A stretch of DNA of 64,000 nucleotides. It comes from Rubrobacter aplysinae (GTDB taxonomy: Bacteria; Actinomycetota; Rubrobacteria; Rubrobacterales; Rubrobacteraceae). Under the pieces are notes generated by a model, which was not told the DNA's origin, searched no databases, and worked only from the letters and a program-made list of their open reading frames with translations. A program made the position numbers and the translations under genes. Positions 4,416-56,194 of this stretch are shown piece by piece. The stretch lies in NCBI RefSeq assembly GCF_001029505.1, contig NZ_LEKH01000007.1, positions 1 through 64,000 on the forward strand, written 5' to 3'. Every line of letters starts with the position of its first letter. Positions within the stretch are counted from its first letter, which is position 1.

Positions 4416-5795
4416 TTACCAGCCGCCGACGCGGACGTCGTTGTAGCCCTCGTCGCTGGCTTCTGGCGGCGGGTAGCTGTACAGGTCCTCGTGCAACAGA
4501 CCCTCGCGGATCACCTCGCCATCCTTCTTTACGGTCTTGTACGTGCTCCACTTGATCCCGCGGTCCGTGTCCTTGAAGTCCTGCTCCGAGCGCATGGTGA
4601 CCTCCTTGCCGTTTGGCTGGCCCCAGATCTCGGCCTTCAAAATCCCCTTCTCCGTTACGTACTCCCGGATCAGGACGTTCGAGTCCGTGGTGTTCTTGAA
4701 CTTCATGTCTAGCTCGGGTATGCCCTGCCCCCCGAACCATACCGTCGCGTCGAAGCCCGGCCTTATATACGGCAGCGTCGTGTAGTGCGGCGTGCGCTCC
4801 ACTATCTCAAGGCCGGCGTACTGGGCGGCCATGTACACGGTCGAGGTGACCTGGCAGAGCCCGCCGCCGAGCGCCGAGGTCTCCCCGCCGTCGGCGAAGA
4901 CCTTTGCCTTTTTGTAGTCCAGACCCGCTATGTGCTCGTTCATGGAGAACACCTCTCCGGGCTCGAGGACAGTGCCGTCCACCGCTCCAGAAGACATCCT
5001 CAGGTTCTGTTTACGCGCCTCGCTATCCGAGTAGCGGTAGTCGGTCTCGAACTCCCCGAGCTTTTTGGTGGGGGCCATGCTTTGCAGATTCTCGGCGCTC
5101 TTCTCGGGCTGTACGCTCTTTGTGGCAAGCGGGATCTCTCCATCCAGCTTGGGTAGCGACTCATCCAGGTTCCCGAGCGTCTTCTGGACGTCGAGCTCGC
5201 TGCCCGGCTCGCCGTCCACCACCTCCAGGTCACCGGAGCCCGAAGCCTCGTAGCTGGCGTTCTCCGGCTGCTGGTCCACCTCGCCGGCGAACCCGGAGAC
5301 GATTTCCTCCGCCGCCTGCCGGTCGTAGGAGACCGCGGCGGGTATCGAGACTCCGGTGGAGGAGCCGCGTACCGCCGCGACCGACCGCTCCACGAAGTTT
5401 CCGTCCCGGCCTACGTCGTAGGCTTTCTCCACGCTCTTCCGGTCATCCAACGCGATACCCAGACTCTGTGCGGAGACCTTGCCGCCGTCCGGTGCGTCGC
5501 CTCCGCTCCCGTTCACGAAACTTATCTGGGCCAGGCTCTGCGAGGCCCCGGCCTCCAGGGCTTGCCGGGCCTCGGCCTTGCTCATTCCGCCGACGTCCAC
5601 GCCCCCGATCTCGACGCCGCGCCTTATGCCCTCGTCACCGCGGGAGAATCCTAGGGCCGCAACCAACACGCCCGCTAGCACCAATGCCAGAAGCACCGCG
5701 CCCACCGTCCTGCGCCGGCGCCGGAAGCTGCCCCGACCGTAGACCTTAAAACCGGCTCCCTCGCCTCTCGCCTTAGAAAACGCCTCTCGCCTCAT
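4416..5795 (-). CDS. VanW family protein with PG-binding domain, 459 aa
   Basis: Predicted extracytoplasmic membrane-anchored protein. A basic stretch and one TM segment (about residues 28-50) are followed by a PG_binding_4-like region (about 60-230) and a VanW domain (about 245-400) marked by GEVFSMNEHI, GGGLCQVTSTVYMAA and RPGFDATVWFGG. VanW was first noted in the vanB glycopeptide-resistance cluster; the biochemical role is unknown, but the fold and Cys motif GGGLCQ are conserved. It is the upstream neighbour of three sortase genes on the same strand, with a second VanW protein just upstream (105-bp gap), suggesting a cell-wall module. No sorting signal is visible at the C-terminus, which ends in a short polar tail. 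Confidence 0.9.
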   Translation of the reverse strand: MRREAFSKARGEGAGFKVYGRGSFRRRRRTVGAVLLALVLAGVLVAALGFSRGDEGIRRGVEIGGVDVGGMSKAEARQALEAGASQSLAQISFVNGSGGDAPDGGKVSAQSLGIALDDRKSVEKAYDVGRDGNFVERSVAAVRGSSTGVSIPAAVSYDRQAAEEIVSGFAGEVDQQPENASYEASGSGDLEVVDGEPGSELDVQKTLGNLDESLPKLDGEIPLATKSVQPEKSAENLQSMAPTKKLGEFETDYRYSDSEARKQNLRMSSGAVDGTVLEPGEVFSMNEHIAGLDYKKAKVFADGGETSALGGGLCQVTSTVYMAAQYAGLEIVERTPHYTTLPYIRPGFDATVWFGGQGIPELDMKFKNTTDSNVLIREYVTEKGILKAEIWGQPNGKEVTMRSEQDFKDTDRGIKWSTYKTVKKDGEVIREGLLHEDLYSYPPPEASDEGYNDVRVGGW

Positions 5796-10274: not shown

Positions 10275-10495
10275 CTTATCGGGGTCCTCGCCCCGGTCGG
10301 ATTTCGGGCAGCGATTCAGTCTCCTGACTCCCGGATCGACACTCCCCCCGGCCTTCCCGTTCCTCGACTTACCGGAGCTCTCTATCAGAGCTCCGTCGGA
10401 AACCGTGGCCTTACTTCGGGGCTCGCTACCCGGTTACAGTGGCGGGACCGTGCCGGACTTTCACCGGCTTCCTGGCTCTCCGCCGCCCTCATTTT
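10275..10495 (-). promoter_or_regulatory. Cobalamin riboswitch upstream of cbtBA
   Basis: Read on the minus strand, the leader contains the B12-box core GCCACTGTAACCGGGTAG, preceded by GGTGAAAGTCCGGCACGG, and several helix-forming segments down to the cbtB ribosome binding site. These are the conserved elements of the cobalamin (AdoCbl) riboswitch. The exact ends are estimated. It would switch off cobalt import when cobalamin is plentiful. Confidence 0.9.
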
Positions 10496-13839: not shown

Positions 13840-14060
13840 CTCCCGGGGATCCTCGTCCCCTCCGGATTACTCTCGGCGGCGGGCCAGTATCCTGACTGCC
13901 GGATCGTAGCCTTTCCCGGCCTTCCCACTCCGTTACAAAGAAGTACAGGAGAAGTGGCCTTACGCCCGCGCGAACGGCGCGCTGGGGAACGCTCCCCGGT
14001 CACAGTGGCGGGACCGTGCCGGACTCTCACCGGCTTCCTGGACACCGCTGCCCCGATGAC
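13840..14060 (-). promoter_or_regulatory. Cobalamin riboswitch upstream of Ni/Co transporter
   Basis: On the minus strand the leader carries GGTGAGAGTCCGGCACGG and GCCACTGTGACCGGGGAG, the B12-box region shared with the riboswitch near 10.4 kb, and ends at the gene's ribosome binding site. Boundaries estimated. The gap from 14061 to 14247 holds nothing else that can be named. Confidence 0.9.
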
Positions 14061-14247
14061 TTGGCGCCCGGCAGTATACAGAGCTCCGGGTGCGGCAACC
14101 AGAGCGGCCCCCGCGGGCTCACGTCGCGGCTAACAGACCGACTAAGACCCCTTCCGGATCTCCTTTGCCGTTCTTTATCGGCCCGGGACCAGAGCGACGG
14201 GGACGCCCGTCCAAAACCCCAAGTCCCGGCATGCGTATGAGTCGGCA

Positions 14248-49432: not shown

Positions 49433-50446
49433 CTAGCTATCCCAAGCCTCGGTGTAGCTGGCTCCGGTGGCGGCCATCTCCGCCATTACCTGCGGATCGA
49501 AGCTCTGCTCGGGGCCGGTGTCCTCCTCGTTACCCGCTGTCTCGTCGGCTATCTCCTGCGTTTGAACCTCTTCGTAACCTTCAAGCTCGCGGCGAGTGTA
49601 GCGGCGGGGCTTCACTCCCTCGGCAAGCCGGGCGTATACCTTACCTCCCCGGCGGCTGCGGTATACCTTCTTCAGATCCTTGAGGCGGTTCAGGGCGGCG
49701 CTGATCCGCTCCTGAGCCTCGGGGCTGTGCGCTCCGCGCTCGTAGTAGAGGCTGTTTATCTCCTGAGCCTGTCCGGGCCTGTGATACAGCCAGTTTATGA
49801 GGCGGTCGGCCTCTCTCCACTTGCGGCGGGCCTCTGCCTTAGCATAGTTCTCGCGGGCCTCGTCTCCGGCCTGAGCCTCTACCCTCTCCCGGTACGCTGC
49901 GAGCGGATCGGCTGTGTAATCCTTGCGCTGCGGGGCGGGGCTGGTGGCGATTATCTGGGCGTTTATCTGGCGGCGGCTGATAGCCTGCTGATACCACCGC
50001 TCGCACTCGTCCTGGCCCGTGCGGGTAGACTTTGGGGCGGCCTCTGCTTCTCCGGCGGTAACGGTGTCTTTGGTCGCCTCGGGGAAAAGCACGGCGGGGG
50101 TGCGGAGTTTTGAAACTCGCGTATCCGCCGGGGCGTAGCTTACGGCGTAGTCTCCCCTATCCTCGGCGCGTCCGGCATCTATGGCGAGGGTGCGGCGGGT
50201 GGTCTGCTGGTAGTCGTCGGTGTAGTAGAAAGCGGTGCTTTCGTCGGCAAGCTTTACCGCGTCCACCGCGCCGATGCGGGCGGCGTAGCCGGTCATCCGC
50301 TCGACAAACTCGGCGGGGATGTGGTGCTCGCTTCCAAGCTCGGCGGCGATCTTGCCGGAGCCGACGCTACCGTTATCCCCTACCCGCTCGCGGAGTGCTT
50401 CGGCAAAACACGTACCGAAAAGATGCGCTACACTGGCCTTATCCAT
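49433..50446 (-). CDS. Hypothetical plasmid-type protein, 337 aa
   Basis: Soluble, no TM. An N-terminal region (MDKASVAHLFGTCFAEALRE) and a conserved-looking section with HHIPAEFVERMTGYAARIGA and STAFYYTDDYQQTTRR; the central part is rich in charged helices (ERVEAQAGDEARENYAKAEA), ending in an acidic tail. The region LYHRPGQAQEINSLYYERG could be a winged helix. AGGGGG upstream of ATG. No family recognised. Confidence 0.7.
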   Translation of the reverse strand: MDKASVAHLFGTCFAEALRERVGDNGSVGSGKIAAELGSEHHIPAEFVERMTGYAARIGAVDAVKLADESTAFYYTDDYQQTTRRTLAIDAGRAEDRGDYAVSYAPADTRVSKLRTPAVLFPEATKDTVTAGEAEAAPKSTRTGQDECERWYQQAISRRQINAQIIATSPAPQRKDYTADPLAAYRERVEAQAGDEARENYAKAEARRKWREADRLINWLYHRPGQAQEINSLYYERGAHSPEAQERISAALNRLKDLKKVYRSRRGGKVYARLAEGVKPRRYTRRELEGYEEVQTQEIADETAGNEEDTGPEQSFDPQVMAEMAATGASYTEAWDS

Positions 50447-51209
50447 TGGGAAGTCCCCCTTTGGATCACGGTTCGGGATGTTGGCTCATCGCCGAACCTG
50501 GATTAACTTTACTAATTAATATTCTAGCAGCTTAACCAGCAAAATCAAGACCAAAAAGGGCGAATTTGGGAGATTTTTAGAGAAATTTTCCCTGCAAATG
50601 GTAGGATTATTTCCCGTGAGACGGCAGCGGCTACCACCAGCCCCAAGCATCCTATACAACTACGCCGCGCCGAAGCCCCAAGCATACCCACACCATTAAA
50701 GAGTCAAAGGCCAGTGTTTCCGAATGTAGGCGTTCCACCGCGCCTAAGCGAGCCACGTCAAGGGCAGCTCTGCTAGGAAAAGTTTTGACGAAGAATTTTT
50801 AGGCCAGAGGCCGTGAAGAAAATTCTTTGCAAACCCGGAGGGCGGCTAGCAGTCTAGACTGCTGGCCGAGTTTTCCGGCCCTTGACGTGGTGAGTGTGGT
50901 GCTACGCTAAAGCCGCTTCGGAAACTGCTGCTCCTACCATCGAGTATCGTACCGGGCCACACACCCCGCGATAGGGATCTGCGCCTTCCGCAGATAGCCA
51001 CACCCCCGCTGGCACAGCCGTCCGCCGTGTTAGAGAAGGTCGCTCTAGGCGGTTCATGTGAACCTCGAACCGCAGCGGGCGAGCCGCACCCGGGTACCTC
51101 TGCTAGCTCGGTCGCGTGATCCTCCAGCCACGCTGCGGCCCGCATGGGCTGGAGCTCGAACTGGTTCGGGCGGAAGCCCCGCGCTCGGGCTCCCGCCCTC
51201 CCCTAGTAG
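50447..51209. other. Long non-coding region with AT-rich block and nested inverted repeats
   Basis: 763 bp. 50500-50610 is AT-rich (AATTAATATTCTAG, AGAAATTTTC) against GC-rich surroundings. 50716-50925 holds five nested or adjacent inverted repeats: GTTTCCGAA (50716/50917), CCACGTCAAGGGC (50753/50878), GGAAAA (50777/50871), AAGAATTTT (50791/50819) and the perfect 16-bp palindrome AGCAGTCTAGACTGCT (50848-50863). Could be a replication or transfer origin, or a large structured RNA. The right part (50930-51209) has nothing I can name. Confidence 0.6.
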
Positions 51210-51509
51210 TTAGTTGGTCTGTAGCCAGTAGCGCGAGAGCTGGGCGTGCAGTGCCTCGTTCTCCTCCAACACATCCTGGAGCTGATGTTCGAGGCCTTTG
51301 ATCTCCATCCTACGGGTGTCCAGCTCCTCCCACAGCCGGCTCGTGTACTCGGAGTCAAACCGCCGCCACTCTTCACGCACCTCGAGCTCTGCCAAAGTCT
51401 CTCTGTAGCGGTTACGATAGAAATCCGCCCTACGGCCCGCGTCGGTGATCAGTATCCAGGCAAGGACCGCGAAAACGGCGAACGCCGCCACGAACAGGAC
51501 TGGCAGCAT
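51210..51509 (-). CDS. Small membrane-anchored coiled-coil protein
   Basis: 99 residues: one TM at 3-23, then a long coiled coil (FYRNRYRETLAELEVREEW, RRMEIKGLEHQLQDVLEENE). AAGGAG before ATG. Function unknown; membrane coiled coils of this size are common on conjugative elements. Confidence 0.7.
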   Translation of the reverse strand: MLPVLFVAAFAVFAVLAWILITDAGRRADFYRNRYRETLAELEVREEWRRFDSEYTSRLWEELDTRRMEIKGLEHQLQDVLEENEALHAQLSRYWLQTN

Positions 51510-52878: not shown

Positions 52879-53373
52879 CTACAGGATGTCAGTCACTACC
52901 CGCTGCCTGGCCTGAGCGTGATGGAAGGGGATATCATCCCACTGCCCATCCTCGAAATCGGCGGGTGCAGCGTCGTTGCCCGAGCTGCCCGAGCCGCCCG
53001 CTGCCGCTCCGACCTTCTGACCACCAGCGGAACCGCCATTCTCGAACTCTCCGCCCTGGCCGCGCGGGAGGAACTGGACCTCATCGGCCACTATGTCCAC
53101 CTTGTTGCGCTTGGAGCCGTCCTGGGCCTCCCACGACCGGAACTGCAGACGGCCCTTGATGAGTATGGGGTCGCCCTTCTTCTTGTAGTTGGCGATGGTC
53201 TCGCCAAGCTCGCGCCAGGCCGTGACGTCGAAGAAGTCCACCTCGTCGTTCTGGCTGCGGACGCGGTTTACCGCGATCCCGAAGTTGCACACCGGGATGC
53301 CGTTGTTCGTGAACCGAAGCTCGGGATCTCGCGTGAGGTTCCCGGCCTCGACCACCAGGTTGAAGTCGGCCAT
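52879..53373 (-). CDS. ssb: Single-stranded DNA-binding protein with C-terminal extension
   Basis: 164 residues. OB-fold 1-105 (LVVEAGNLTRDPELRFTNNG, FFDVTAWRELGETIANYKKK, WEAQDGSKRNKVDIVADEVQ), Gly-rich linker 107-138. The conserved acidic tip DDIPF is at 146-150, but 14 more residues (HHAQARQRVVTDIL) follow, whereas the tip is normally the very C-terminus and must be free to bind partner proteins. Protects ssDNA in plasmid replication or transfer. Confidence 0.95.
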   Translation of the reverse strand: MADFNLVVEAGNLTRDPELRFTNNGIPVCNFGIAVNRVRSQNDEVDFFDVTAWRELGETIANYKKKGDPILIKGRLQFRSWEAQDGSKRNKVDIVADEVQFLPRGQGGEFENGGSAGGQKVGAAAGGSGSSGNDAAPADFEDGQWDDIPFHHAQARQRVVTDIL

Positions 53374-54233: not shown

Positions 54234-54977
54234 TCACCCCACATCCAGGCTCTCCTGAAACCTCTCGAAGTCTCGCTGGCGTGCCTCCTTCTGGGCCTGA
54301 CGTATCGACTGCCAGTGAGATGGATACCGTCTAAGATCCACATCTCTAAGGCCGCCCTCTCTTACGAGCTCCTCCGGGAATACTTCGGCCTGAAGCAGTA
54401 CCGCCTCCGGCTCGATAGCCTCGACCATCGCTCTGCACCCCGAGACGAATAGCGACCTCTCGTGACGGTTACCCAGATCCACCCCGACGCTCGATATAGC
54501 CACGGTAGAGCCCTTCTCGACTCCGAGAAAGCAGAACGTGTACGACTCCTCCGTGGACCACGAGATCGTCGGGATCACCTTCACCCCACCGGACTGCCAG
54601 TACGCCCCGCACCAGCGGTTGCGGTAAACGTTCCAGAGCTGCACCGTCAGCGGCCAGTCACGATAGAGACTGAAGTCCGGTGAGAGGGCAAAGCCCACGC
54701 TACTTACGTACTTCAGCTTCTCCCGGGGACGACTCCACACACCCTCGAACCGGTAGTCCTCGAGGAAGAAATGCAGGGCCGTCCGGTATGGTTCGTGGGC
54801 CAGCACCACATCTTCATTGAGCCTGGTCCGGTACGGCATCAGCACACCGGGGATCTCTTGCTCTCTCCTTATCAGGGGTATGCCGAGACCGTTGTCAGAG
54901 TCCATCAACCGGGTGGTGTTCAGGGCGTCTACCGAACCCTGTGGGCTCTTCTTCTTGAGCTCCTTCTCTACGTCCAC
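54234..54977 (-). CDS. DUF4417 domain protein
   Basis: 247 residues. The core FALSPDFSLYRDWPLTVQLW, NVYRNRWCGAYWQ and VKVIPTISWSTEESYTFCFL match DUF4417, found on phages and plasmids; role unknown. It follows the small 62-residue gene by 37 bp, an arrangement I associate with such elements. Confidence 0.88.
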   Translation of the reverse strand: MDVEKELKKKSPQGSVDALNTTRLMDSDNGLGIPLIRREQEIPGVLMPYRTRLNEDVVLAHEPYRTALHFFLEDYRFEGVWSRPREKLKYVSSVGFALSPDFSLYRDWPLTVQLWNVYRNRWCGAYWQSGGVKVIPTISWSTEESYTFCFLGVEKGSTVAISSVGVDLGNRHERSLFVSGCRAMVEAIEPEAVLLQAEVFPEELVREGGLRDVDLRRYPSHWQSIRQAQKEARQRDFERFQESLDVG

Positions 54978-55990: not shown

Positions 55991-56096
55991 TTCACACACC
56001 CTTCACACGACTTTCTCGGTGAAGGGTGTGTGAAGGGTACTTTTGTCGATCCGGCGCGTGATACGTGTGTGAAGAGTCTGTGAAGCCTGTGTGAAG
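55991..56096. repeat. Iteron-like repeats with 16-bp hairpin
   Basis: Perfect inverted repeat TTCACACACCCTTCAC (55991-56006) / GTGAAGGGTGTGTGAA (56019-56034) with a 12-base loop. TGTGTGAAG units at 56027, 56066 and 56088 and a variant TCTGTGAAG at 56077; the last three start every 11 bp, about one helical turn. This is the pattern of plasmid iterons or multi-site operators. It follows the two-HTH regulator gene. Confidence 0.7.
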
Positions 56097-56194
56097 GGGC
56101 AGATTCGCCGGTGCAGTATGCTGTCGCTGCACCACTTAGCCAGCTCCCGATACCAGCTTGAATACAGCTCCCGACACTTCTCATCGCGTTCCAT
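56003..56194 (-). CDS. Possible small protein overlapping the iteron region, 63 aa
   Basis: ATG at 56194 with GAGGGAAG upstream, overlapping the end of the two-HTH gene. The first 30 residues look coding (MERDEKCRELYSSWYRELAK); the rest is set by the iteron repeats (TLHTRITRRIDKSTLHT). Either a real gene with repeats in its end or a chance frame. Confidence 0.4.
   Translation of the reverse strand: MERDEKCRELYSSWYRELAKWCSDSILHRRICPFTQASQTLHTRITRRIDKSTLHTPFTEKVV

Follow-up and report, generated by a model that had tools for sequence, protein, structure and literature searches.

Promoters that act on single-stranded DNA have so far been studied mainly in F-like plasmids of Proteobacteria; these single-strand promoters, Frpo and ssi, are reportedly the subject of work by Masai and Arai from 1997. 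Frpo of the F plasmid is formed by folded ssDNA of the transferred strand, in which -35, -10 and UP boxes are reconstituted, and it drives the leading genes ssb/psiB/ygeAB early after entry (PMC9849209, PMC11541004). Folded single-strand origins, many of which are recognised by RNA polymerase, occur in ICEBs1 and in rolling-circle plasmids (PMC4595007). Our search of the open-access literature found no report of ssDNA promoters in Actinobacteria. The locus described here is located in a 64,000-nt stretch of Rubrobacter aplysinae DNA (referred to below as the window), and it contains a long hairpin which, judging from its modelled fold and the boxes that it carries, most likely works like an ssDNA promoter, with no formal membership of the Frpo/ssi class being claimed.

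The inverted repeats listed in the original prediction for this region were all found at their coordinates: a 13-bp pair of 100% identity (CCACGTCAAGGGC, 50753-50765, and GCCCTTGACGTGG, 50878-50890), a 9-bp pair, also identical at 100% (GTTTCCGAA, 50716-50724, and TTCGGAAAC, 50917-50925), a further pair (AAGAATTTT, 50791-50799, and AAAATTCTT, 50819-50827) and a perfect 16-bp palindrome (AGCAGTCTAGACTGCT, 50848-50863), which is the stem of P4. They are not due to chance, since three perfect inverted repeats of at least 9 nt lie within 224 nt, compared with 0.09 expected from shuffled sequences, and none of 500 shuffles equalled this number. The nested repeats form a single hairpin of approximately 220 nt, with three small hairpins at its apex. 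When folded with RNA parameters, the + strand (50700-50940) reaches -111.2 kcal/mol (z -6.5; 0 of 200 shuffles), whereas the fold of the - strand of the hairpin region is weaker (z -3.4). The absence of a protein frame was also borne out: no plausible ORF covers the hairpin, and the flanking genes (49433-50446, referred to as the left gene, and 51210-51509) are both located on the - strand. The AT-rich block at 50500-50610 is real as well, and it contains an ordinary - strand promoter-like site (TTGATT-16-TAGAAT, 50548-50521), so that it can be accounted for separately from the hairpin.

The whole hairpin (50716-50925, + strand) is composed of an outer stem, a spacer stem, a -35 stem (P1) and the apex. 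The arms of the outer stem are GTTTCCGAA and its partner TTCGGAAAC, and an outer stem of other sequence is also present in the relatives described below. P1 is built from the 13-bp pair, whose left arm (50753-50765) constitutes the template side of the -35 box. The apex (50776-50876) comprises the A/T stem P2 (GAAAA/TTTTC), hairpin P3, the sequence CCCGGAGGG and hairpin P4. Within the right arm, a -35-like hexamer (TTGACG, 50882-50887) is paired in the fold, with a pair probability of ~1.0 in all relatives; 15 nt past it lies a -10-like hexamer (TACGCT, 50903-50908), which is looped in most of them. Boxes resembling those within the hairpin (TTGACT-15-TATGCT, 50683-50708, - strand) are also found at its left base.

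A covariance model (R1), built from four relatives with the window left out, finds the window at 50749-50912 with 55.4 bits (E 2e-10). A sister copy is present on contig 5 of the window's own genome (G000, 3.19 Mb; the window is on contig 7), where R1 scores 90.2 bits, and with this copy as a query relatives were found in other Rubrobacteraceae genomes. Applied to 39 genomes of the family, R1 yielded about ten solid matches, while weak ones (L046, L048 and L051; E 0.03-0.08) were left out; L072, L044 and L142 are further members. The relatives number about a dozen, all of them carried on integrating or conjugative elements of one family, which named records (R. marinus, R. taiwanensis and Rubrobacter MAGs) identify as Rubrobacteraceae. 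An R1 search of 396 genomes of the phylum gave matches in Rubrobacteraceae only. BLAST searches with the hairpin against plasmids and phages gave no match, exact-pattern scans of viral contigs found nothing, and neither the hairpin nor the leader matched a family of Rfam 15.

The original prediction had proposed a covariance search in homologous plasmids. Such plasmids were not found, the relatives being mostly integrated elements, and the compensatory changes sought there are present in 10 of the 25 modelled pairs. In the nine R1-aligned members 97.7% of the cells pair, and the number of pairs that change on both sides was not reached in any of 500 shuffles; when the partner is slid by one base, pairing falls to 52-59%. 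The -35 stem occurs as GTCAAGG/CCTTGAC, CGCAAGG/CCTTGCG and ATCAAGG/CCTTGAT, and pairs of P1 are swapped among relatives (C-G/G-C/A-T and T-A/G-C). Such compensatory changes indicate that the fold is selected. G-T pairs outnumber A-C pairs on the + strand (7 versus 2), which favours this strand as the folded one, with the reservation that the count is small and that the hairpin sequences are related and their counts not independent. The region, 210 bases long, is thus a real hairpin that evolution has conserved on mobile DNA of Rubrobacteraceae.

The 3′ arm of 11 members contains TTGACN, TTGCGN or TTGATG, followed after 15-16 nt by TACGCT, and this arrangement is found in every intact member, with TATGCT replacing TACGCT in L065. 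In each of the ten members measured, the TTG-to-TA distance amounts to 21 or 22 nt; the eleventh (L142) has TTGATG-16-TACGCT together with an apex of a third kind. The reversed pattern, used as a control, was not found. In DNA-energy folds with the apex removed, the -35 box is paired at ~1.0 and the spacer stem at 0.8-0.9, while the A of the -10 box, its least paired base across the relatives, has a mean pairing of 0.24 and the stem downstream averages ~0.8. The -10 box of the window itself is predicted to be less open, being partly paired (0.4-0.9, with the A at 0.7). A -35 box held in a stem next to a mostly looped -10 box would, in these models, form a pre-melted promoter site.

The apex varies among the members. 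L063 and L142 each have one of different sequence; in L066 (~5040-5190) it has the opposite orientation with respect to the promoter, which is intact on the other strand, in L010 (~1500-1640) it is half-inverted and in L013 (~1500) inserted sequence interrupts it. The apex therefore resembles a hot spot for rearrangement. TTG-16-TACGCT is retained despite the exchange of the apex in L063 and L142 and its inversion in L066: the apex of the hairpin is replaceable and the promoter is not. A candidate for an A+T-rich, UP-like tract before the -35 box is a stem of the GAAAA/TTTTC type, which occurs in nine members and is absent from L063 and L142.

The element in the window encodes a single-strand DNA-binding protein (52879-53373, - strand; PF00436, E 2.3e-30), near which lies a gene for a DUF4417 protein (54234-54977, - strand; PF14386, E 9e-55), as well as a Replic_Relax protein, TrbL/VirB6, a pilin-like protein, a VirB4-type ATPase and a transglycosylase. 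The loci of the relatives contain genes for tyrosine integrases, Replic_Relax proteins and type I methylases. The element of the window and its relatives are thus integrative or conjugative elements. Elsewhere in the window, cobalamin riboswitches (RF00174) were detected at 10317-10474 and 13865-14079 (-), with 80 and 79 bits, respectively.

The left gene (337 aa) matches no Pfam or NCBIfam model in the window, and a tblastn search with it against plasmids found none. In L057, L059, L060, L061, L062, L063 and L072 its counterpart is a SWIM zinc-finger gene, and that of L142 is assigned to the same type by sequence likeness. A conserved small gene (GRVxATPGAL...GDWGEVxPEDARENE...SSYP), without a Pfam or NCBIfam model, follows the SWIM gene at L057:16050-16322, L060:10300-10623 and L063:10972-11247. 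The left gene lies on the - strand in the window and in the relatives, and the fold and the boxes are on the + strand, which makes the folded strand the template for this gene. To the left of the hairpin, conservation continues through an antisense element (described below) and reaches the first part of the left gene; to the right, it does not go beyond the base of the hairpin. Alignment of the right flanks, inspected for an RNA or an oriT, gave patchy GC hairpins only; these (CCGGCGGGCGGTAGCCGGCCGG and GGGCCGGGGTCGGC) are patchily conserved in the right flank of L061, L062, L063 and L072, ~80-160 nt past the -10 box.

The explanation that we prefer, with a probability of about 0.5, is that the hairpin is a single-strand promoter of Rubrobacteraceae mobile elements, firing leftwards into the - strand gene. 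This model starts from what was observed, i.e. conservation, compensatory pairing, boxes at fixed spacing, a replaceable apex, the orientation of the gene and the mobile-element context, from which we infer polymerase binding, the identity of the + strand as the single-stranded (transferred) one and the direction of transcription. When single-stranded, the + strand of the conjugative or integrative element would fold into a promoter for host RNA polymerase, with the 3′ arm supplying the non-template -35 (TTGACG) and -10 (TACGCT) boxes and the 5′ arm serving as the template. With the -35 box in a perfect stem and the -10 box mostly in a loop, the site would already be melted. The polymerase would then run off the base of the stem and use the 5′ flank as a template, producing a leftward RNA that would be sense for the gene at 49433-50446 (in most relatives a SWIM zinc-finger gene); the same RNA could also prime second-strand synthesis.

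Several points speak against this model. In double-stranded DNA the boxes could simply be a rightward promoter, and the left gene of the window also has ordinary promoter-like sites. The A/T-rich UP-like apex is missing in L063 and L142, and L010, L013 and L066 are rearranged or interrupted. No oriT that would give the transferred strand was found for the window's element; were the - strand transferred, the model would fail for gene expression.

Like Frpo/ssi, the hairpin is long and intergenic, and by prediction it presents -35 and -10 boxes, at the proper spacing, reconstituted in the folded strand. It also shares with them an A/T-rich apex (in most members), a gene oriented to be read from the folded strand, and a conjugative element with its own SSB. 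It differs in having no nucleotide similarity to known Frpo/ssi (blastn against 72,556 plasmids, including the F plasmid record), in its length (~220 nt, compared with the longer hairpins of F) and in the position of its boxes, which lie in one arm at canonical spacing. Furthermore, it originates from Actinobacteriota, would serve SWIM and uncharacterised genes instead of ssb/psiB/ygeAB, and adjoins a candidate antisense RNA. Used as a control, the F plasmid also yielded a long hairpin, which carries its A/T apex on the strand opposite ssb and has the same broad shape; its promoter boxes, however, were missed by a simple TTGnnn-TAnnnT scan, and the hairpin geometry is therefore uncalibrated on a proven case. 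With the single-strand origins of ICEBs1 and rolling-circle plasmids the hairpin shares strand specificity and, for ICEBs1, location on an integrative element; unlike sso1, which consists of three stem-loops, it forms one long nested hairpin with -35 and -10 boxes at fixed spacing.

Alignment of the left leaders revealed the adjacent conserved element (50429-50520, + strand; model R2). It is a candidate cis-antisense RNA directed against the first part of the left gene, the predicted target of both elements. It contains two stem-loops, in which 11 of 21 pairs are doubly changed among nine sequences. SL1 (50443-50464) is complementary to the Shine-Dalgarno sequence and start codon of the left gene, and SL2 (50469-50498) is a terminator-like, GC-rich stem followed by a T-rich tract; across all sites the 10 nt past SL2 contain 5.3 T residues, compared with 1.8 expected. 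The element begins with a -10 box (TACACT, 50429-50434), and its first six bases match TANNNT in 61 of 65 sites; the -35 box is weak, with the best offset corresponding to a 17-nt spacer. On the gene strand the -10 box, which lies over codons 5-6 of the target ORF, appears as the codons AGT GTA; this accounts for the "SV" that unrelated proteins have in common at residues 5-6, including the N-terminus MDKASVA encoded by the left gene.

In the window's own genome R2 scores 63.4 bits (E 2.2e-16). Matches were found in 34 of the 39 family genomes, with up to eight copies each, and in 66 of the 396 phylum genomes, the best one outside the family having an E value of 1.7e-13. A Streptomyces plasmid has one match ahead of a P4-type primase, and another match precedes the SWIM gene of R. 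taiwanensis, where no R1 hairpin was found. Among 62 distinct sequences 96.1% of the cells pair, 20 of 21 pairs show double changes and covariation is 0.570 (0.205 when shuffled), values that lean toward the model, since the alignment was fitted to it; in the sliding control pairing drops to about 50%. On the + strand, opposite the gene, G-T pairs outnumber A-C pairs by 119 to 4, so an RNA of this strand is the likely folded molecule. The anatomy looks like that of a cis-antisense RNA, 65-75 nt in length, whose -10 box is placed within the ORF that it targets. The element matches no Rfam family, and we found no published account of it in the open-access literature; on the strength of its sequence features we regard a new family of cis-antisense RNAs as a likely prediction.

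Plasmid antisense RNAs of the FinP/CopA type consist of two stem-loops, the second of which is terminator-like, and are antisense to a Shine-Dalgarno sequence and start codon. The element at 50429-50520 resembles them in all of these respects, its target being a gene of the mobile element. It differs in that its -10 box is located inside the target ORF (codons 5-6), in lacking an Rfam family and in being spread over many unrelated element genes of Actinobacteriota; to our knowledge, no sequence relation connects it with FinP/CopA.

The two elements may also be linked functionally. Of 54 R2 sites without a recognised hairpin, 20 are followed, no more than 200 nt beyond the element, by a promoter-like site on the - strand, against an expectation of 7.8; these 20 include five near-identical copies. 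Such promoter-like sites are often close to the consensus (TTGACA-17-TATAAT) and lie at a distance of ~45 nt. At the hairpin sites, an ordinary promoter-like site was found in none of eight, with the window as the exception (TTGATT-16-TAGAAT, in its extra AT-rich DNA). It thus looks as if the hairpin replaces the promoter that the left gene usually has, as judged from sites that are few and related.

The original prediction, which had offered an origin (of replication or of transfer) or a large structured RNA, is supported in part. The fold is selected, but since a promoter is conserved on it (the -35 stem, the -10 loop and the fixed spacing), a promoter or origin acting on ssDNA fits better than an RNA or an oriT; as for the term origin, a single-strand origin, i.e. 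primer synthesis on ssDNA, is possible. A structured + strand RNA, for instance an extended transcript from the antisense-RNA promoter at 50429 or a 6S-like RNA that binds polymerase, would agree with the higher stability of the + fold in RNA parameters, the compensatory changes and the ratio of G-T to A-C pairs (7 versus 2). Such an RNA would be separated from the upstream + promoter by the terminator-like SL2, its own 5′ end has no conserved promoter, its apex is replaceable and it matches no Rfam family. The -35 and -10 boxes would be of no use to it; because this conserved, regularly spaced promoter sits at what would be its 3′ end, a free-standing structured RNA is less likely than the ssDNA promoter, and we consider it unlikely.

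We also regard as unlikely that the hairpin is an oriT or rolling-circle origin, i.e. a relaxase or Rep site with a nick near TACGCT or CTTG. CTTG is found at some rolling-circle nick sites, TACGCT is conserved and mostly unpaired, and nested inverted repeats in an intergenic region would suit elements with Replic_Relax and T4SS genes. However, the block of conservation goes together with the first part of the left gene and not with a relaxase gene, and ORF inspection recognised no relaxase-like ORF within 9 kb in L061 and L062, both elements with SWIM and integrase genes. Moreover, a better candidate for the oriT or oriV of the window's element, judging from its repeats, is the region at 55991-56098, in which a 16-bp perfect inverted repeat and four ~11-nt iterons (GTGTGTGAAG) lie upstream of the HTH and Replic_Relax genes.

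An ordinary double-stranded promoter directed rightwards (+), with a cruciform as its regulator, is rather improbable. TTGACG-15-TACGCT looks normal on the + strand, but a convincing + strand gene to the right is absent in the window and in most relatives, the right flank beyond the stem is not conserved, and paired arms with compensatory changes would be left unexplained. Least probable, in our opinion, is a single-strand origin only, at which the polymerase would make a short primer for the second strand without any role in gene expression: it would have the same anatomy, and folded origins of this type are present in ICEBs1 and rolling-circle plasmids (PMC4595007), but the hairpin is constantly associated with the start region of the left gene, whose usual promoter is missing at eight of nine hairpin sites. 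A retron (no reverse transcriptase was recognised nearby), a riboswitch or 5′-UTR of the left gene on the - strand (the - fold is weaker and the wobble pairs are on +) and likeness to the CS-6 hexamer of single-strand origins (not kept in relatives) were rejected.

Combining the single-strand promoter with the antisense element, we tentatively consider a two-part switch on actinobacterial mobile elements that would respond to the strand state of the DNA. As long as the DNA is double-stranded, constitutive transcription from 50429 would yield a cis-antisense RNA by which the start of an establishment gene is silenced. Upon entry of the + strand into a new cell in single-stranded form, the antisense RNA could not be made and the folded hairpin promoter could fire, so that the gene would be expressed only briefly after entry.

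Elements of the 50429-50520 kind probably regulate genes of actinobacterial mobile elements, as suggested by the covariation in 62 distinct sequences; a widespread RNA family of Actinobacteriota, absent from Rfam, would then be described here for the first time. If the single-strand promoter is confirmed, expression from incoming ssDNA would have arisen, or spread, far outside the F-like plasmids of Proteobacteria, and the left genes, those of the SWIM type included, could be regarded as candidate establishment factors.
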